Shown one piece after another: positions 1 to 11,969 of a stretch of DNA of 64,000 bases. How positions within the stretch are numbered: the first letter of the stretch is position 1; each line of letters begins with the position of its first letter. Source of the DNA: Neisseria animalis (GTDB taxonomy: Bacteria > Pseudomonadota > Gammaproteobacteria > Burkholderiales > Neisseriaceae); assembly GCF_900636515.1 (NCBI RefSeq), contig NZ_LR134287.1:1116001-1180000 (forward strand), in the 5' to 3' direction. Made by a program: the position numbers and the translations under genes. The notes below the pieces were generated by a model. The model was not told the origin of the DNA and searched no databases. It saw nothing but the letters and a program-made list of their open reading frames with translations.

Positions 1-2
1 TC

Positions 3-3000
3 AAAAAAGCAGCAATTGCTTCCAACGAAGGCGCAGGCTTGGCCATGAGCAGTTTGGAACTGGCCAAAACCGATGCTTCGCGTCTGCCGCCGTTGCAGCT
101 TTTTACGCATAACGAAAGCGGCAGTTTGAACACCCCTGCCAACCGCAGCGCGATTGCCCAATTTGTCGGCAATTTCCCGCAAAACCAACAGGCAGCCTTG
201 CAGGACGCAAACGGTATGCTTTCGCGCGAAGGATTGCGCCGTTTGGAAAACGCCATGCTGTATCAGGCATACGGCGACAGCCCCGCTTTGCAGCGCATGG
301 TGGAAAGCAACGACGTAGAAAGCCGCAATGTGGGCAACGCCTTGGCGCAATCGGCGGGCGTGGTGGCCGATGCGCGCAACGATATGGCTTATGGCGACTT
401 GTACGATTTGGATATTGCGGCCGACTTGGTACAGGCGGCAGATTTGATTGAGTCGTTGCGTTCGCAGGGGCGCAGCGTGCAGGATTATTTGGCACAGCAG
501 GACTTTGCCGATACCGTGGGCGATACGGCGAAAATGTTGCTGGCGTATCTGGACGGCAATATCCGCAGCGCGAAAAAAATCCGCGATTTGATACACGCCT
601 ATTACGGCGAAGTCCGCGCATTGGGCAATCCCAAAGAAGGGGATATGTTCGGCGGAAACGATACGGTAACACGACAACAGCTATTGAGAAAGGCTATTCA
701 TGAGCAATCGGGAGACTTTGGAACAGAAACGCAACCGGGAAATACGGGAGCGGATGCAGACGGCGAAACAGGCAACGGCCGGGCAGCAGAAGCAGGCTCT
801 GATGAGGCTGATTTACAATCTGGAACACAATCCGCAGATGGCGCAGGCGATGGAAGCGGCGTTGAAACGGTTGGCGGGGCGGTAAGGCCGCAAGAGACGG
901 ACGAGGATTATCTTGCCGATGGTGCGGCAATGACGGATGCGGAGCAGGAGGCAAATGATGTGCTGTTCAGCTTGGACGAGTCGGCTGATTCGGTGTTTGC
1001 GCGCGCGGTGGATAAGGCGGCAGGCGGTTATCAAGGTGACCGTAAGCGTTATATCCGTATGGGCACCACGCCCGATGTACTGAAAATGCTGGGTTTACCT
1101 GATACGGCTATTTCCATGCGCGAAGATGTTTTCAATAAGGCGATGGGCGGAAAGCACAATTTGACTGCTGCTGATATGAAAGCATTGCCGCGTGAAATCA
1201 ATAATCCTGTGGCAGTAGCAAAATCACGCAGTACGGATAATGGTTATGTGGTTTTTACCGAATTGACCGAACATGAAAACGGCAAAGAAAAGCCGATTAT
1301 TGCTGCACTGCATTTAAAAACATCAGAGAAAGGTTTGGAAGTTATTGATGTTGCCAGTGCTTACGGGCGAAGCAAAAGGCAGATTGAAGCGGATTTGCAA
1401 CATACGCTGTATTGGAATAAAGAAAAAGGTTATCCGTTTGTTGATAGAGCGCAGCTTCAATTGCCAGTTGTCATTCTCAACAAGGATAACCTTTCCAGCT
1501 CCAATATTAAAACAGAAACTGACTTGGCGCAATACCGAAGCGGTAAAACCCCAACGGACTTGACCGAAATCAACACCCGTTTGCGCCGTGCATTGGGCGG
1601 CGAACGGGCGGCTTTGGTGCAGGTGGTAGATTCCAAAACCGCTTTTCCCAAGGATTGGACGGCCATTAAATCGGGCGGTATCGAGGGCAGCTTTAACCGC
1701 AAGACGGGCGAACTGTATCTTTTTGCCGACAACCTGACCCCGGAGCGGGCGGTATGGGTGGCTTGGCATGAGCTGGGGCATAGGGGTTTTGCGGTAAAAG
1801 GCAGCCGCGAATACCTGAATACGCTGGATTTGCTGGGGCGCAATGAAACGGTGGCGAAGATGGCAGACAGAATCCAACGGTTGCGACGCGATACGGACGA
1901 TGCGGCGGCAACGGTACGCAGCGTGGCGGTGGAAGAAGCGGTTGTGGAACTGTATGCGGCACAGCAAACAGGCAACTGGGCGGAAATCGAGACGCGCTAC
2001 GGGGTGGAAATTTCAGACAGCCTGAAACGCCGTGCGGGTAATTGGTTGAAACGGATTGCCGAAACCTTGCGCCGTGTGTGGGCGATGGCAACGGGCAGAC
2101 GAGAGGTTTCCGATCGCGAGGTGCTGGAAGCCTTGGCGGATATTCATCGGGATAATACGGCCGAATTGGACGGGGATTTGGGCGGAGATGTGCTGTTTTC
2201 CAAATACAGCGATGATGCGGATAAAGTGAATCGTGCGTTTGAAATCATGACAGAACCGTTTGGGGACAGGTTTATCGTAAGCAGAGATTCTTCGCGTATC
2301 AGCAATTCAGAATATGTTGAGATTTACGATGCGGAAAATGATGAAGGTTTTAAAGTACGCGTTTCCGACCATTCTTTGCCTGCTCATCATCGTAATCCTT
2401 ATGAAGCGAAGTTTGAAGTATTTCCGCGCGGCGGCAAGGATACCAACAGTCGCGGTGAAGATGCGAAGTGGCATACCGACGGCAGTTGGGTGGAAGCGGT
2501 TGAAAAGGCGGCAGAAATGTTCGGATTGGAAATTCCGCCGCATGTGAAAGCGGTTAAAACCCGCATGGAGAGAAAGGCGGAGCAGGGGGAACAAAGCAAA
2601 CCTGCAAGAAAAGCAGCCAAACGTAATCCGAACGCCAAGCGGATTAAGGAATTGAAGGCGCGTATTGCCCAATACGAGGAGATGATTTCGTGGAATCAGG
2701 GCGAATCGGAAGCGGCGGTAAGCAACCGTAAGTATTTTAGCGAACGCATTGCTGAATTTAAGGCTGAAATGGAATCGCTTCAGGATTCGGGCAGTCGGTT
2801 CAGCCGTTCGCATGATGCGGATTTTGCACGCAAGGCGGCGGTGTTGCAGGGAGAGCCGGTGGCAGTTATCAGCGAACGGAAAGCTCCACAAGGATTTAAG
2901 GCTTTAAGGGAATGGGCTGCAGGCCTGTTTAAACAGGCGGGTGGTGCGGCAGTTAATCCTGAAGTTGGAGAGATTGCATTAAATGAGCGGGCTGTTCGTG

Positions 3001-6000
3001 ACTCCATTGCACACGGAATGAATCCGTTTAAGGCAGAAGCATTTGCTGTTGTTCCGGAAGTGATTGAACAAGGTGTAGTTATCCATCAGGGCAGAAATCC
3101 TGATAATGGTGCGGAGTATGTTTATATCAGCGCACCAGTGATGATAGAAGGGAAAGATGATGTGGTTACGCTGCTGGCAAGAAATACGGGCAGCGGCAGA
3201 CAGATGTATCTGCATAGTGTGGTTACAAAAGAAAGTATCCTGAATGCCAGTGATACCGAGACGGCTGTAATCAGCCGCGAAACGGGGAAGGTCAATTCAG
3301 GATACATAGCCAATATACTCCGTAATTATCTGAATTACAAGCCTGAAACGGAAAACAGTCTTTCCGATATGCGTTTTTCCCGTGCTGACTTGATGACGGA
3401 AGAGCAGGTGCGGGAGTTTGCCGAAACGGGGGAAATGCCGCCGTCTGATTCGGTGTGGCAGGATATGCAGCAGGCTTATCGCGACGAGCAGGTGCGCGGG
3501 CGGTTGAAAGACGGAATCGTCAGCAAGAAAGACAAGCTGCTGGAAGCGGTGGAAGATGCGGCCATTCAATTGAAACGCTGGGCGGACGGTCTGCCTGATT
3601 TGGTGGCCGATGCGCCGATGCGCCAGCTTTTGGAACAGGCTTTCCGCCGCGCGCCGAATATGCGTAATGCGAAGAATCAGGAAATTCAGGTGCGTTTTGT
3701 AACGCCGCTGAATAAGGAATTGTCGCGTTTGCAGAAAAAGTACAAGGGCAAGAGCTTGGTTGAGCTGAAAAACCTTGTCGGCTATTGGATGAGCGCGAAG
3801 TATGCGCCGACAGCCAACAAGCGGCTGATTGAGCGGGCAGAAGCCAAGGTTGAAGAGGCGAAGGCGGCGTTGGCGAAAAAGGAAACGGCGGCGAATAAGG
3901 CGGCTTTGACCCGCGCGGAGAAGGAACTGGCGGAATACCGCGCGTCCATCAGCGGTAAGAAGCAGGGCAAGACGGCGGGCGGTTTCTCTAATCCTGTGGC
4001 GGCCAAGGTTAAGGCGGATATTGAGCAGCATATCGAGCTTGCGGACTTGGAGGCGGTGGCCGGCCATGTACGGGGTATGCTGGACTTTGCGCTGGACTTG
4101 GATTTGGAAAGCGGTATGATTTCCAAGGAGATGTATGATGAATTTAAGGTAAACGTGGATTATGTGCCGTTTACGGGCAATCCTTACGACCCGCTGAACG
4201 GCAGCGATGATGAACGCGATGTGTTGTTCGGCGGCGGCAGCGGGATTAATCAGGCGCGCGACAAGCAGATGAAAGGCCGTGTTTCGATGGCGCAAAACGG
4301 TATTGATGCGGCGTTCGGCAGGGTGGCGAAATCCACGGCCAACTACGGCTATGCGGATTTCAAGAACAAGCTGAATACGGTGTATGAGCGTGCGCTGCGC
4401 CATTATCTTGATATGGGGCTTGATGAGCATGAGGCCAAGAAGCGCGTGGCGGAGGAAATCGGCATTGCGCGCGCGGCGCGTTCGCCGTTTTCGCGCAATA
4501 CGGACAATGTGATTTTTCATAAGGTAGACGGGCGTGATGTGGAGTTTTCGTTGCGCCCTGCGGTGATGGCGGGGATTGTGAATGCGAACCGCGAAGAAGT
4601 GCCGTCTTTTGTAAAACCGGTTCAGGGATTTACGCGGCTGTATGCGCGCGGGGTAACGCAATTTGCGCCGGCTTTTGCGCCGATGAATGCTTTCCGTGAT
4701 ATTTGGGAAAAAACGGAGATGATCCGGGTAATGGAAGGCTGGAACGAACAAGGCGGAAAGGTGGATATGGATAAGGTGGCGCGGCAGGCTTGGGCGAATT
4801 TTACGAAGTCTGCACCGACAACGTTTAATGCGGCGTGGAAGGGGGATTTTTCAGGGAAGGACGGCAAGCTGCTGAAGCAGTTTTTGGATTTGGGCGGGGT
4901 ATCGACTTACGGGACGATGCTGGCGAAGACGGAAACGGATATGCTCAAGCATGTGGCAAGGGAAAGCGGTACGGCTTTGTCTGTGCTGAAAAAGGGTGTG
5001 GAAAGGGTTGAGCAGTACAATCAGATGTTTGATTTGATGCCGGGCTTTTCGCTGTTTAAGGCGTTGACCGACAACGGGGTATCGGCGGAGGCGGCGGCGG
5101 GATTGGTGTTGGGAACGGCCGACTTCAATAAGCGCGGCGCAAAAATGGGTATTGTGCGTGCGCTGTATATATTTTCGCAACCGACGGCCATGGGCGCGGC
5201 CAACTTGGGGCGTTTGCTGGCTACGGCAAAAGGCCAGCGGCGGTTTGTGGGGCAGGCTGCGGCGGCGATGGTGCTTTATTCGCTGCTGCGCGGCATGGAA
5301 GATGAAGACAATGGCGGCAACAAGCTGGATCAGGAAGGGGATATGACGCGCTATATTCCGATTCCGATGGGCGGTGAGTTGTTGAAAATCCCTGTGGGCT
5401 TCGGTTTGCCGCAACTGGTTTGGAATTTTGCGACCAACAGCGTGAAGGCGATGGAGGGGGATATTACGGCGGGGGAGGCGTTCGGCAATATGCTTGCCCA
5501 TTGGTCTAAGACGGTGGCGCCGGTATCGCCGTCTGAAATTTCGGTGGCGAAGTATCCGGGGGCGAAGTTGGCGATGACGGTTACGCCGACGGTTTTTCAG
5601 CCGATTATGCAGAATGTATTAAACCGTAATGCGTTCGGCTCACAGATTACCAAGGGCTTTGTGCGCGAAGATGTGTTGAAGGCGGAGCAGTCTAAGACGA
5701 CAACGGCACCGGAATGGAAATCGGCGGCTTTGTGGTTGCAGCGCAACTTCGGTATTGATTTGCACCCGGAGCAGATTCAGAATCTGGTAAACGGGTATGC
5801 GGTATCGGTATTGCGCGACGGGATTAATTTCTTTATTGAAAATCCGAACCGCGAGGCTTTGGGCAGGCAGCCGAAGACTTTGTTTTTCAATTCGATATAT
5901 GGTCCGCGCAATGAGTTTGCGATTCAGAGCCGTTATTATGAGGCGGTAAGTGAGGCTTCGGAGGTGTTTAAGGAGTTTGAAAGCCGCAAGAGACACGGGG

Positions 6001-6245
6001 ATTTGAGCGGTTGGCTGGACGATGAGAAGCGGGCGGTGATTGCTTGGTATAAGCGGGCGAAATCGGCGGAGTCCCGTGTATCGCGCCCAAAGGCAAGGGC
6101 TACGCGCTTGTTTAACAAGGGCGGCTTGTCGGAAGAGCGTATGCGTGAGGTAACGGTACGCACCATCGGAAGACGGGCGGATATGCAATCTGTTGCGCTT
6201 GGCCAATGGCGTAAATTGAAAGGGCTGAATACGGCTTTTGAATAG
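3..6245 (+). CDS. Giant phage polyvalent/ejection-type protein (DdrB-like, MuF_C-like, HELGH and LPD38-like segments), 5' partial
   Basis: The reading frame is open to the left window edge, so the TTG at 39 is not the true start and the N-terminus is missing. Residue numbers here count from that TTG. The first part resembles the end of DdrB/ParB-like domains of large polyvalent phage proteins. Residues about 318-480 look like a MuF C-terminal domain. Residues 577-581 read HELGH, an HExxH zinc-peptidase signature. About 978-1100 resembles a small LPD domain, and 1520-2020 resembles the LPD38 domain found at the end of such proteins. Proteins of this kind are thought to be packaged in the virion and injected with the DNA. 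Residues about 223-310 are a Gly/Ala/Asp/Glu-rich linker that overlaps another open frame. It ends at a bidirectional terminator shared with the convergent KilA-N gene. The domain boundaries are estimates. Confidence 0.8.
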   Translation, partial: KKAAIASNEGAGLAMSSLELAKTDASRLPPLQLFTHNESGSLNTPANRSAIAQFVGNFPQNQQAALQDANGMLSREGLRRLENAMLYQAYGDSPALQRMVESNDVESRNVGNALAQSAGVVADARNDMAYGDLYDLDIAADLVQAADLIESLRSQGRSVQDYLAQQDFADTVGDTAKMLLAYLDGNIRSAKKIRDLIHAYYGEVRALGNPKEGDMFGGNDTVTRQQLLRKAIHEQSGDFGTETQPGNTGADADGETGNGRAAEAGSDEADLQSGTQSADGAGDGSGVETVGGAVRPQETDEDYLADGAAMTDAEQEANDVLFSLDESADSVFARAVDKAAGGYQGDRKRYIRMGTTPDVLKMLGLPDTAISMREDVFNKAMGGKHNLTAADMKALPREINNPVAVAKSRSTDNGYVVFTELTEHENGKEKPIIAALHLKTSEKGLEVIDVASAYGRSKRQIEADLQHTLYWNKEKGYPFVDRAQLQLPVVILNKDNLSSSNIKTETDLAQYRSGKTPTDLTEINTRLRRALGGERAALVQVVDSKTAFPKDWTAIKSGGIEGSFNRKTGELYLFADNLTPERAVWVAWHELGHRGFAVKGSREYLNTLDLLGRNETVAKMADRIQRLRRDTDDAAATVRSVAVEEAVVELYAAQQTGNWAEIETRYGVEISDSLKRRAGNWLKRIAETLRRVWAMATGRREVSDREVLEALADIHRDNTAELDGDLGGDVLFSKYSDDADKVNRAFEIMTEPFGDRFIVSRDSSRISNSEYVEIYDAENDEGFKVRVSDHSLPAHHRNPYEAKFEVFPRGGKDTNSRGEDAKWHTDGSWVEAVEKAAEMFGLEIPPHVKAVKTRMERKAEQGEQSKPARKAAKRNPNAKRIKELKARIAQYEEMISWNQGESEAAVSNRKYFSERIAEFKAEMESLQDSGSRFSRSHDADFARKAAVLQGEPVAVISERKAPQGFKALREWAAGLFKQAGGAAVNPEVGEIALNERAVRDSIAHGMNPFKAEAFAVVPEVIEQGVVIHQGRNPDNGAEYVYISAPVMIEGKDDVVTLLARNTGSGRQMYLHSVVTKESILNASDTETAVISRETGKVNSGYIANILRNYLNYKPETENSLSDMRFSRADLMTEEQVREFAETGEMPPSDSVWQDMQQAYRDEQVRGRLKDGIVSKKDKLLEAVEDAAIQLKRWADGLPDLVADAPMRQLLEQAFRRAPNMRNAKNQEIQVRFVTPLNKELSRLQKKYKGKSLVELKNLVGYWMSAKYAPTANKRLIERAEAKVEEAKAALAKKETAANKAALTRAEKELAEYRASISGKKQGKTAGGFSNPVAAKVKADIEQHIELADLEAVAGHVRGMLDFALDLDLESGMISKEMYDEFKVNVDYVPFTGNPYDPLNGSDDERDVLFGGGSGINQARDKQMKGRVSMAQNGIDAAFGRVAKSTANYGYADFKNKLNTVYERALRHYLDMGLDEHEAKKRVAEEIGIARAARSPFSRNTDNVIFHKVDGRDVEFSLRPAVMAGIVNANREEVPSFVKPVQGFTRLYARGVTQFAPAFAPMNAFRDIWEKTEMIRVMEGWNEQGGKVDMDKVARQAWANFTKSAPTTFNAAWKGDFSGKDGKLLKQFLDLGGVSTYGTMLAKTETDMLKHVARESGTALSVLKKGVERVEQYNQMFDLMPGFSLFKALTDNGVSAEAAAGLVLGTADFNKRGAKMGIVRALYIFSQPTAMGAANLGRLLATAKGQRRFVGQAAAAMVLYSLLRGMEDEDNGGNKLDQEGDMTRYIPIPMGGELLKIPVGFGLPQLVWNFATNSVKAMEGDITAGEAFGNMLAHWSKTVAPVSPSEISVAKYPGAKLAMTVTPTVFQPIMQNVLNRNAFGSQITKGFVREDVLKAEQSKTTTAPEWKSAALWLQRNFGIDLHPEQIQNLVNGYAVSVLRDGINFFIENPNREALGRQPKTLFFNSIYGPRNEFAIQSRYYEAVSEASEVFKEFESRKRHGDLSGWLDDEKRAVIAWYKRAKSAESRVSRPKARATRLFNKGGLSEERMREVTVRTIGRRADMQSVALGQWRKLKGLNTAFE
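700..885 (+). CDS. Candidate overlapping 61-residue gene nested in the giant phage gene (+1 frame)
   Basis: An ATG with a good ribosome binding site (GAGAAAGG, 6 bases upstream) opens a 61-residue frame in the +1 frame of the giant gene. The product is rich in Gln, Arg, Glu and Met, looks helical, and ends KRLAGR before TAA. In the main frame the same stretch encodes only a low-complexity Gly/Ala/Asp/Glu linker. One frame therefore looks like a compact soluble protein and the other like a permissive spacer, as expected of overprinted genes. No function is recognised. A chance open frame in GC-rich DNA remains possible. Confidence 0.42.
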   Translation: MSNRETLEQKRNREIRERMQTAKQATAGQQKQALMRLIYNLEHNPQMAQAMEAALKRLAGR

Positions 6246-6295: not shown

Positions 6296-7084
6296 TTAGG
6301 CGAACATATGCTTCAAGCAGGGAATGGCTCTGTCTTCAAACGGGAAGGTTGAGTAATGTACTTGATGCCGGTAGATTTTGCCGTCCCGAATGATGACGCG
6401 GTATTCTGCGTTTTCATTCAGATTGAATGGGATATTTGCCTGATTGCGGTATAGCTTGGGCACGGTTTCCAAGGTGGCGGCGGTTTTTTTCTCGGCTTCT
6501 TCGCGGTATTGCGCGCCTTTTGCGACGGCTACGCGCGCCATCAGGCTTAATATTTCGGGAAATTGTTCGGGCGGTATGTCTTTGTAGCCGCTTTTGAATT
6601 TGGCTTTGATTGCCGACCAGAGGGTAATGGCCAAGGCTTTTTGTTTTTCAAAGGGTACGGATTGTACCAGCAGGTTGTGCATGGCTTTGACTTCGGCCTG
6701 CTGCTCGCGGGTCAGTCCGTTTGGCAGGGCTTTTTGGGGCTGGGTTTGCAGACGGCCTGAAACAACTGCATCGAACGTACGGATAACTTGTAAAAAGAAT
6801 TTTGCAGAAATCCAAGTAGCGTAGGCGTAAACCAGTTCTTTGCAGGCGTATGTACCGCGATTTGCACCACCCCTTATAACCTGAATAACTTGTTTCGGTT
6901 TTTCCAAACCTGAAATTTCAGGTTTGGAAATTTCATCAATCAATTCATTTGTTTGCTGAAGTTTTAGCCAATTTGTCAGTTCATGGCGCTTTTCGCCACC
7001 ACTGGCTTTATGTAAGTCGTTCAGATTGTAAAGTCTGTTTGAGGTTTGGCGGATTGCCACACTTGAAATTTGAATTGCGTTCAT
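6296..7084 (-). CDS. KilA-N domain phage regulator (antirepressor-type)
   Basis: 262 residues. Residues about 5-110 match the KilA-N fold of phage antirepressors and regulators: an N-terminal 'RLYNLNDLHKASGG' segment, 'LTNWLK', then 'GTYACKELVYAYATWISAKF'. Such proteins bind DNA and often act as antirepressors that favour lytic growth. The rest is a helical, charged C-terminal region of unknown role. The start is ATG 7084, with GGAG about 8 bases upstream. Directly upstream lies a C4-type RNA whose loop can pair with this ribosome binding site, the arrangement known for the ant genes of P1 and P7. Residues about 111-116 (GRLQTQ) are encoded by an uptake sequence (GCCGTCTGCAAA), so the gene itself carries a neisserial DUS. 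A promoter for the whole unit is visible at 7318-7346. Confidence 0.8.
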   Translation of the reverse strand: MNAIQISSVAIRQTSNRLYNLNDLHKASGGEKRHELTNWLKLQQTNELIDEISKPEISGLEKPKQVIQVIRGGANRGTYACKELVYAYATWISAKFFLQVIRTFDAVVSGRLQTQPQKALPNGLTREQQAEVKAMHNLLVQSVPFEKQKALAITLWSAIKAKFKSGYKDIPPEQFPEILSLMARVAVAKGAQYREEAEKKTAATLETVPKLYRNQANIPFNLNENAEYRVIIRDGKIYRHQVHYSTFPFEDRAIPCLKHMFA

Positions 7085-7370: not shown

Positions 7371-7655
7371 TTATGCCTGCTGCTCCAGCCATTCGGCAAG
7401 GGCTTTGTCCATACGCGCCTGCCAGCCTTTGCCGGTTGCTCTGAATGCGGCCAGTACGTCGGGAGACAGGCGGATGGATACCAGCTCTTTTACGGGGGCT
7501 TTCTGCCTGCCGCGCGTTCTTTTTGCTTCATGGGCCATAACCATTTGTACAAATTCGGGCGACATGACTTCGTGAACGGGCTTGAATTGCGCCATTTCTT
7601 CAGCCGATACTTCGCGTATGTTGCCTGCTTTGTCAATCAGCGGTTTGTTGCTCAT
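7371..7655 (-). CDS. brnA: BrnA-family antitoxin
   Basis: About 94 residues from ATG 7655, chosen because GGGAGG lies 8 bases upstream; an open extension to 7715 lacks a comparable site. The C-terminal half has the BrnA pattern 'VSIRLSPDVLAAFRATGKGWQ' followed by 'KALAEWL', the ribbon-helix-helix region that binds both the operator and BrnT. The start overlaps the end of brnT by 23 bases, so the two are translationally linked with toxin first, the normal brnT-brnA order. The product should neutralise BrnT and repress the palindromic operator at 7936-7953. The operon ends at the terminator at 7320-7353. As prophage cargo it may promote phage maintenance, which is inference. Confidence 0.85.
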   Translation of the reverse strand: MSNKPLIDKAGNIREVSAEEMAQFKPVHEVMSPEFVQMVMAHEAKRTRGRQKAPVKELVSIRLSPDVLAAFRATGKGWQARMDKALAEWLEQQA

Positions 7656-7908
7656 ATCGTTTGACCTCCCTTTTGTTGGCTTTGCGGAAACTGATGATGC
7701 GGATGCCGTCGGCAAGCGGTGTAAAACAAAGAAAATGCAATCTGCCTCTAATCATGCCGTAGGCGGCATAGCGTGGCTCGGGGTAGTCGTGTCGGATGTC
7801 GGGCAGTATTTTTGCTCCGCTCCATTCAAAGTCCTCTGCCGCTGAAAACGGTAATCCGCGCTCTTCTTCGTTGTGCTTGGATTTGACGGGGTCAAATTCA
7901 ATCCGCAT
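7633..7908 (-). CDS. brnT: BrnT-family ribonuclease toxin
   Basis: 91 residues from ATG 7908 (MRIEFDPVKSKHN...). The open frame extends further upstream, but only this start fits the family length and lies downstream of the promoter. It has the BrnT (DUF497) layout: an N-terminal 'FDPVKSKHNEEERGLPF', a central acidic 'DIRHDYPEPRY', 'RLHFLCFTP' and C-terminal 'GIRIISFRKANKREVKRYE'. BrnT toxins are RelE-like ribonucleases that halt translation. The 3' end overlaps brnA. The promoter has TTGCCT and TACAAT 17 bases apart, with a perfect palindrome covering the -10 box, so autoregulation by BrnTA is expected. Confidence 0.87.
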   Translation of the reverse strand: MRIEFDPVKSKHNEEERGLPFSAAEDFEWSGAKILPDIRHDYPEPRYAAYGMIRGRLHFLCFTPLADGIRIISFRKANKREVKRYEQQTAD

Positions 7909-7935
7909 TTCAATAGCCTGTTTGAAAGATTTAGT

Positions 7936-7953
7936 AAATTGTAAATACAATTT
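7936..7953. promoter_or_regulatory. Palindromic operator of brnTA
   Basis: AAATTGTA-AA-TACAATTT is a perfect 8-2-8 inverted repeat. Its left arm contains the minus-strand -10 box (TACAAT, 7938-7943) of the brnT promoter. The position suits repression by the BrnT-BrnA complex. Confidence 0.72.
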
Positions 7954-7966
7954 GCTGTTGAGGCAA
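7938..7966 (-). promoter_or_regulatory. brnTA promoter
   Basis: On the minus strand TTGCCT (-35, 7961-7966) and TACAAT (-10, 7938-7943) are spaced by 17 bases. Transcription would start about 25 bases before the brnT ATG. The operator palindrome overlaps the -10 box. Confidence 0.7.
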
Positions 7967-8096
7967 GCGGTTTGATTGGCGGGTAGGCTGCAATTTTTTC
8001 CTAATCGGGGATTAGGCCGGTTTTTTTGCGGTATAGTGGGTTTGTCTGCTCCTTTTTGTGCCTGTGTGCTTTTGCATACGGGCATTTTTTTATGCG

Positions 8097-10784: not shown

Positions 10785-11969
10785 ATGTCGGCTGTTTTGA
10801 AAATCGACAGGTCGTGGCTCAGCGTGATGGCGCTGGCGGTGGGGGCGTTTATTTTCAATACCACCGAATATATTCCGATTGCGCTTCTGAGCGGTATCGG
10901 CACAACATTTGATATGCCGCCCACACAGGTGGGGGTGATGATTACGGTATATGCGTGGATTGTTGCGCTGCTGTCGCTGCCCTTGATGCTGCTGACCAAG
11001 AATTTTGAGCGGCGGAAATTGCTGCTGGTGTTGTTCGCGCTGTTTGCGGCAGGGCATGTTTTGTCGTTTTTCGCTTGGAATTTCAATATCTTGCTGGCCA
11101 GCCGCGCGCTGATTGCGCTGGCGCATGCGGTGTTTTGGTCGATTACGGCGGCATTGGTGATACGGGTGGCGCCGAAGGGTAAGGGTAATCAGGCTTTGGG
11201 ACTGCTGAGTACGGGTACGGTAATGGCGATGGTGGCGGGTATTCCGCTGGGGCGCATTATCGGGCAATATTTCAGCTGGCAGGCCAGCTTTTTGCTGATT
11301 GGTTTGTGTGCGGCGGCGGTGATGCTGGTTTTGGCGAAAAACCTGCCGCTGCTGCCGAGCGTAAACAGCGGTTCGCTGGCCAGCCTGCCGCTTTTGGTGA
11401 GGCGCAAAAATCTGATGCTGCTGTATGCGTTTACCGTGTTCGTGATTACCGCGCACTTTACGGTATACAGCTATATCGAGCCTTTTGTATTGCAGGAGGG
11501 TGGTTTTGGGCCGGATCAGGTAACGCTGGTGTTGGGCTTTTACGGTTTGGCGGGGTTCGCGGCATCGTATCTGTTCGGGAAATGGTTTGCCAAATTTCCG
11601 CGCCGGTTTTTGGTGGGCGCAACGGCGGTGATCGTGGCGGTTACGCTGCTGCTCCTGCCTGCGGCGGCTTCGGCTTGGGTGGTATATGCGTTGTGTTTTA
11701 TATGGGGAATCGCGATTTCCGTGGTCAGCTTGGCGATGATTGCCAAAGTGTTGGATTTCGCTTCGGATGCGACCGATGTCGCTACCTCAATCTATTCGGG
11801 TTTGTATAATGTCGGCATCGGCGGCGGCGCGCTGCTGGGGCATTATGTCACGCTGTGGTTCGGCTTGGATGCAGTCGGGTTTGCAGGTGCTTTGCTGGCT
11901 GCGTCGGCAGCGGTACTGGCATGGCAGATTGTCCGCCGGAATGATTTTTTGGCGGCAGATAAGGCTTGA
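10785..11969 (+). CDS. MFS transporter, sugar-efflux (SotB-like) family
   Basis: About 394 residues from ATG 10785, chosen over ATG 10770 because AAAGGAAGG lies 6 bases upstream. Twelve membrane segments are apparent. The N-terminal 'LAVGAFIFNTTEYIPIALL' and 'AHAVFWSITAALVIRVAP' resemble the DHA1 sugar efflux proteins of the SotB/YdeA type. The predicted role is proton-driven export of sugars or drugs across the inner membrane; the substrate cannot be read from sequence. It is the first chromosomal gene beyond the prophage and appears monocistronic, ending before a degenerate Correia-type repeat and a bidirectional terminator. Confidence 0.8.
   Translation: MSAVLKIDRSWLSVMALAVGAFIFNTTEYIPIALLSGIGTTFDMPPTQVGVMITVYAWIVALLSLPLMLLTKNFERRKLLLVLFALFAAGHVLSFFAWNFNILLASRALIALAHAVFWSITAALVIRVAPKGKGNQALGLLSTGTVMAMVAGIPLGRIIGQYFSWQASFLLIGLCAAAVMLVLAKNLPLLPSVNSGSLASLPLLVRRKNLMLLYAFTVFVITAHFTVYSYIEPFVLQEGGFGPDQVTLVLGFYGLAGFAASYLFGKWFAKFPRRFLVGATAVIVAVTLLLLPAAASAWVVYALCFIWGIAISVVSLAMIAKVLDFASDATDVATSIYSGLYNVGIGGGALLGHYVTLWFGLDAVGFAGALLAASAAVLAWQIVRRNDFLAADKA

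Follow-up and report, generated by a model that had tools for sequence, protein, structure and literature searches.

Bases 700-885 of the window, as the whole analysed stretch of 64,000 nucleotides from Neisseria animalis is called here, would encode two proteins at once: a segment of a giant polyvalent phage protein and, in the +1 frame, a separate protein of 61 residues. A probability of about 0.85 is assigned to this reading in its full form, which includes an internal start, a small gene that came first and a product that is a partner of the DdrB module; some of these parts carry gradings of their own and are discussed below. That the +1 frame is a real protein-coding gene under protein-level selection is strongly supported by the comparison of homologous sequences. 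The feature of the small frame that exceeds chance expectation is its conservation, not its openness.

The coordinates of the features discussed are collected in Table 1. Read from the N-terminus, the giant carries PBECR3, ddrB-ParB, the conserved DdrB tail, the linker with the small ORF, MuF_C, the HELGH motif, LPD3 and LPD38. It is a polyvalent protein of the DdrB kind, with a ddrB-ParB domain and further conflict domains in one chain and virion genes adjoining. The genes upstream of it include ones with SU10_adaptor and Phage_lysozyme2 domains, and the region is therefore taken to be a set of prophage virion genes. Directly behind the giant gene and convergent with it, a KilA-N domain protein (PF04383) is encoded at window 6296-7084 on the minus strand, and a BrnT/BrnA toxin-antitoxin pair (PF04365, PF14384) lies just outside the giant gene on the same minus strand (window 7371-8085).

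Table 1 Positions, in window coordinates, of the giant gene, its domains and the nested gene
Feature	Position	Strand	Remarks
Giant polyvalent protein gene	3..6245	+	2080 codons inside the window, 2899 in the whole open frame; first start before the window, at L005 13573
Conserved tail of DdrB module	3..692	+	ddrB-ParB domain (PF18763) just upstream of the window, L005 15628-15984
Candidate ribosome site GAGAAAGG of the nested gene	686..693	+	6 bases before the ATG; many random positions equally strong
Giant-protein linker	699..884	+	bases common to the nested gene; 92% of residues from ten types
Nested small gene, 61 codons	700..885	+	+1 frame of the giant gene; homologues, codon phase, shuffle test, structure model
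Exchangeable cassette	950..1565	+	differs from the second giant copy of the same genome; both sides 99.7% identical
MuF_C domain (PF18819)	1143..1427	+	Pfam match in the giant protein
HELGH motif, metallopeptidase-like	1767..1781	+	read directly from the sequence; no Pfam match
LPD3 domain (PF18798)	2895..3209	+	Pfam match in the giant protein
LPD38 domain (PF18857)	5349..5810	+	Pfam match in the giant protein

A second giant copy in the same genome (locus L006, G000:C1:1038000-1057000; open frame 1980) contains an identical nested gene at 11256. The two copies are identical over window positions 1-903, 99.7% identical over 1-949, different over 950-1565 and again 99.7% identical up to 5100, so that in L006 a different cassette stands right behind the identical nested gene, as if domains had been swapped at this junction. 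A repeat of ~110 bases occurs in several copies and in both orientations at these loci (L005 11588-11696; L006 8720-8829, 9083-9192 and 15688-15798). Two of the repeats lie at the borders of stretches common to both giant copies, and they are possibly involved in the exchange between them.

The original prediction, derived from this one sequence, described a 61-codon frame in the +1 frame of the giant gene, and the frame is present as described: it is a complete start-to-stop frame inside another gene, in a different frame of the same strand, with its ATG at 700-702 and its TAA at 883-885, shifted by +1 relative to the giant-frame codons that begin at 699, 702 and so on. The giant-frame linker over the same bases, which had been called Gly/Ala/Asp/Glu-only, proved to be Gly/Ala/Asp/Glu-rich (37 of 61 residues by hand count) and to contain other residue types too; 92% of it consists of G, A, D, E, P, Q, S, N, R and T. 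When the giant amino acids were fixed and the codons redrawn from the giant's own usage, the 61-codon +1 stretch remained open in 58% of the draws, and across members the corresponding values with giant amino acids kept ranged from P = 0.15 to 1.0; openness of the +1 frame was accordingly dropped as evidence. The ribosome site, said to be well placed, does lie 6 bases before the ATG, but its strength is ordinary: 37% of 400 random positions match the pairing predicted between GAGAAAGG and the anti-Shine-Dalgarno end (-3.5 kcal/mol), and this site was also dropped as evidence for the gene. With openness expected by chance (0.58) and an ordinary ribosome site, the single-sequence arguments weigh little.

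The mark of selection was sought in codon phase, the third positions of the small frame being the first positions of the giant frame. Among five pairs of giants, no member of which was reused, giant third positions differed at 79 of 258 sites in the overlap versus 555 of 934 upstream (Fisher P = 2e-16), and in the same disjoint pairs the ratio of first- to third-position differences moved from 286:555 upstream to 102:79 in the overlap (P = 3e-8). Behind the ORF stop, the third-position difference was high again in five pairs (0.46 to 0.69); in the window/L029 pair, the first positions there were as high as the third, a sign of poor homology. A sliding first/third ratio reached its peak in the overlap, which covered 76-100% of the peak window, in seven of eight pairs, with a narrow lead in window/G016 and L078/L083. 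As exceptions, the overlap of L030/L026 came only second along the gene, and G017/G016 was flat in the overlap (0.38, 0.35, 0.35). The shuffle test, in which the giant amino acids were kept, synonymous codons were redrawn and the profile was built without the member's own clade, gave the same result throughout: in 12 of 12 members (11 of family A, described below, and L059), none of the 3000 draws reached the score of the real +1 product.

As a negative control, nine disjoint pairs of giants counted as lacking the ORF were picked by closeness and compared at the same site. Their third positions differed at 261 of 508 positions at the site versus 702 of 1705 upstream (0.51 vs 0.41), that is, more and not less. 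Their first-to-third ratio went from 298:702 to 151:261 (P = 0.014), with third positions still the highest; this slight shift is as in any laxer region. Synonymous-site constraint in the 700-885 interval, proposed with the original prediction as a check, is thus found as a depression of giant third positions in the overlap that is absent from the ORF-less control. It is very improbable that no second protein exists and that RNA structure or composition holds the third positions, because the bases that are freest against expectation are the small-frame third (giant first) positions, which is the mark of a codon frame, because the +1 amino acids fit a profile from other clades beyond all shuffles, and because the ORF-less sites show no such depression.

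The 61-residue product, used as a query, was found in 3 of 46 genomes of the genus. With the giant's DdrB tail as the query, seven loci were obtained in 6 of the 46 genus genomes and, when 83 genomes of the family were searched, eight loci in 7 of them; all eight family loci show the small ORF at the same site, and it is intact in seven of them. The ORF sequence in G081, a genome of the same family, is identical to that of Stenoxybacter acetivorans. Five viral loci from IMG/VR (L009-L013) all lack the small ORF, and 29 further loci from genome and viral contigs include six with the ORF and 23 without it, one of the latter ending before the site. Near-copies left out, 11 distinct diverged giants with a +1 ORF at the same place constitute family A; start, frame and stop are kept in all 11, as had been proposed for checking in homologues, and one further relative, L018 (G020), is broken, both the giant and the nested frame being interrupted within the overlap, apparently by one indel. 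These counts of distinct members omit the near-copies L014, L027, L056, L057, L089, L092, L103, several of L077-L087 and L101, as well as the cut-off loci L054 and L093 and the broken L018. The ten other family A products are 22-57% identical to that of Neisseria animalis and share with it the core L-x-x-L ... P ... A ... M-x-x-A-L, with few exceptions per position; the small proteins of relatives range from 48 to 85 residues.

A profile run against all 12,947 six-frame ORFs (at least 30 residues) of the loci returned the family A members, the broken copy and one chance match (L055), followed by L059 (E 0.0019) and L064 (E 0.81), both of which lie at the same site and in the same frame as the family A ORF. 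A third such member, L070, came from a later search, and the three were placed in group D, whose kinship to family A is weaker. Scanning viral contigs with alignments of the small proteins gave no confirmed case among 345 stretches, and a second scan of this kind returned only the contigs of the already known L031 and L032.

Giants at a greater distance, found in further families of the order and in their viral relatives, also hold +1 small ORFs right behind the DdrB motif: five of six loci in one set (including L070, the group D member) and 22 of 27 in another (one, L093, cut off). Apart from L070, the ORFs of these distant giants form two further sequence families, B and C. When the phase test was applied to six disjoint pairs from B and C, third positions differed at 520 of 1122 sites upstream versus 95 of 327 in the overlap (P = 2e-8), the pair L073/L076 being an exception without depression (0.66 vs 0.67), and all 13 members tried passed the shuffle test, with 0 of 2000 draws each. 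Profile comparison of A with D, B and C detected no kinship; the homology of families A, B and C is unsupported by it, and a single origin is consequently left without support. Loci L065, L099 and L102 have +1 ORFs near the site behind the DdrB tail that fit none of A, B or C and were counted as lacking the gene; these may be further nested genes. Among the phage-collection records with a DdrB-like stretch (13 in one search, 33 in another), the five inspected, P1 included, have no such ORF at the site.

Because the DdrB tail was the query that brought in most members, the association of the small gene with DdrB is partly a product of the search design. Profiles of the small proteins themselves were therefore also run against 300 genomes of the order. 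The family A profile returned the two copies of the Neisseria animalis genome and one chance match. The family B profile gave two giants in G345, a loose copy in G259 and a doubtful match in G179, and the family C profile gave the G212 giant and a loose copy in G129. Two of the five credible places from the B and C profiles are therefore loose copies with no DdrB domain nearby. The family B copy (L111; G259 contig 280, 9929-10072 minus) is a complete ORF near tRNA-Ser, on a contig that ends ~660 bases upstream of it, and the family C copy (L109, in G129) has no clear start and is preceded by a gene that we take to be integrase-like. Both may be prophage relics or free small genes; tblastx of these loose loci against the giants gave noise only. 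With one representative each of A, B and C as the query, the phage collection yielded no match at E up to 5. Two profile matches were dropped: that in G281 (L055, E 4e-4) lies in a frame read as another protein, presumably a transport permease, and that in G179 (L106, E 7e-4) has a stop inside, as judged by inspection only.

The way in which the small frame is reached has to be considered separately. The head of the ORF carries ATG in 30 and GTG in 1 of the 31 nested ORFs, and 25 of the 31 have an in-frame stop no more than 15 codons upstream of the chosen start, starts having been picked by alignment (in L019, L030, L031 and L098, another in-frame ATG precedes the chosen one). We infer initiation at the internal ATG on the giant's mRNA, together with its timing and the partner of the product: ribosomes would start at this ATG on the late mRNA of the giant and produce a small helical protein. 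Programmed frameshifting from the giant frame, yielding a truncated DdrB protein whose tail is read from the small frame and requiring no internal start, is improbable. Such a mechanism would suit the family C starts, which have no Shine-Dalgarno-like site to speak of, and the broken relative L018, in which the DdrB frame runs into the small frame, apparently via an indel; the usable start at the head of every ORF and the upstream in-frame stops in most of them speak against it.

Which of the two frames is the older one was approached through codon usage, with the rest of the giant gene as a yardstick and the mean log ratio as the measure, rather than the published t-Hotelling test. In 30 of 31 overlaps, codon usage was closer to the rest of the giant gene in the small frame than in the giant frame; Stenoxybacter was the sole exception and G010 a near tie. 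For families A, B and C, respectively, the means were 0.15, 0.30 and 0.42 in the small frame and -0.09, -0.22 and -0.31 in the giant frame over the same bases, the giant gene elsewhere having 0.19, 0.26 and 0.37. The codon-usage criterion, as given in PMC8227390, would make the small frame the ancestor; according to the same review, older de novo genes and old nested genes can also acquire normal codon usage. At the same time, in the viral loci L009-L013, the DdrB tail runs almost directly into the stretch that precedes MuF_C, and linker and small gene are both missing. Codon usage and this joint absence make the linker, rather than the gene, the more likely overprint.

The small gene is thus likely, though not proven, to be older than the linker, which would be the small gene read out of frame. 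Under the proposed course of events, the small gene would once have been flanked by a DdrB-domain gene in front and another gene behind, and an open frame through it would have joined both neighbours into one giant gene. No intact phage with three separate genes at the junction was found, just the two loose copies, which lack giant flanks. A 70-row tree of the DdrB tail needs at least eight label changes, and A and D surround lineages without the gene, a placement that is consistent with an early presence followed by losses but is no proof of it.

In the picture drawn by the original prediction, one frame was born over the other and the unconstrained linker tolerated it. A functional gene does overlap the linker; the assignment of the newcomer is what codon usage and the loci L009-L013 turn around. 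The usual kind of overprinting, with the giant and its linker already in place and the small gene arising de novo on top of that unconstrained linker, is a possible but somewhat unlikely order. It would account for the narrower distribution of the small gene relative to the DdrB module, since 39 of the 70 tree rows have no recognised small ORF (so that not every such giant needs the small gene), and it would agree with the statement in PMC8227390 that in most viral overlaps the de novo frame is shifted by +1, the more so if nested. It is opposed by the good fit of codon usage to the small frame and its poor fit to the giant frame, by the fact that loci with the same flanks miss gene and linker together, and by the restriction of 83-100% of the giant-frame residues to ten types in all 31 overlaps.

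The 61-residue product is predicted to consist of two helices, 7-43 and 45-60 (mean pLDDT 81.8, pTM 0.40), and the family B product of three short helices (mean pLDDT 88.7, pTM 0.59). A fold search with the two-helix model gave no PDB match and one BFVD match at E 8.6, and no convincing known family was obtained for the small protein in PHROGs (best E 0.16), Pfam (best E 0.035) or the sequences of solved structures (best E 0.083). The small protein might act on the DdrB part of the giant, in its folding, in its processing or in keeping its enzymatic modules quiet before packaging. A DdrB partner is proposed because the small gene stays beside the DdrB module while the domain behind it is exchanged; this, and the processing of P1 DdrB before packaging, for which its own peptidase domain has been proposed (PMC5512222), led us to favour a helper or restraint of the DdrB part. 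The role of helper, restraint or partner of this module is suggested only weakly and is put forward as a tentative assignment. The original prediction had the product as a possible small regulator, a role that none of the present results bears out.

It is also doubtful, on the present data, that the small protein acts freely in host takeover or anti-defence, as a late product tied to the giant by nothing more than the common mRNA. A small, fast-changing and predicted helical product would be in keeping with such a factor, as would the two loose copies without a DdrB domain nearby, one of them a complete ORF, and the place of polyvalent proteins in phage-host conflicts described in PMC5512222. 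The nested copies, however, lie right behind the DdrB module at one site and are kept when the next domain is swapped, searches of the phage collection with one representative per family were negative, and the loose copies may themselves be relics of prophages.

Small genes nested in another frame of a longer one are known from other viruses. The closest likeness is offered by the S gene of hepatitis B virus and the polymerase spacer, where, according to PMC8227390, a longer gene contains a short one that is read in a different frame, and the long frame is a spacer linking two domains. From codon usage it was argued there that the short gene, situated between two genes, is the older one and that the spacer frame arose through it and serves as a linker. 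That system belongs to an animal virus and has a much longer overlap, whereas the present one concerns dsDNA phages and prophages and a DdrB polyvalent protein, so the resemblance is an analogy without homology. Genes E and K of phiX174 are likewise small phage genes, each read from a different frame within a longer one; in that phage the small genes are taken to be the later arrivals (PMC8227390), whereas here the long frame, merely a linker, looks like the newcomer. The host giant, with its ddrB-ParB, PBECR3, MuF_C, LPD3 and LPD38 domains, resembles the DdrB-like ParB polyvalent proteins (PMC5512222; PF18763, PF18819, PF18857), and in the available part of that paper no nested gene is described, nor do the words 'overlap' and 'small ORF' occur. 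Phage P1 (NC_005856) has an annotated ORF inside a DdrB gene, iddB; it lies on the opposite strand, in the DdrB domain region and not in a linker, whereas the Neisseria ORF is on the strand of the giant, and iddB, being antisense to ddrB, was rejected as a relative. At the equivalent site, P1 has no +1 small ORF of this kind. A search of the open-access literature, at the level of listings and the beginnings of abstracts, returned no description of this nested gene; nested phage genes as such are well known.

Gene callers usually discard nested ORFs of this type, and conserved phage proteins can consequently hide inside the largest genes. On a more general level, giant polyvalent phage proteins may grow by fusing through intact small genes, the nested gene remaining functional and its out-of-frame reading turning into a linker between the DdrB module and exchangeable domains; this would have happened at least three times at one junction (A, B and C), or once, too long ago for resemblance to persist. 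We put the chances of this generalisation at about even. A concrete small protein is now in hand for study beside the DdrB-type polyvalent proteins. Moreover, the repeated presence of a +1 gene at one junction raises a testable question, namely whether the linkers of multidomain phage proteins are free filler or the second reading of genes caught between fused neighbours.
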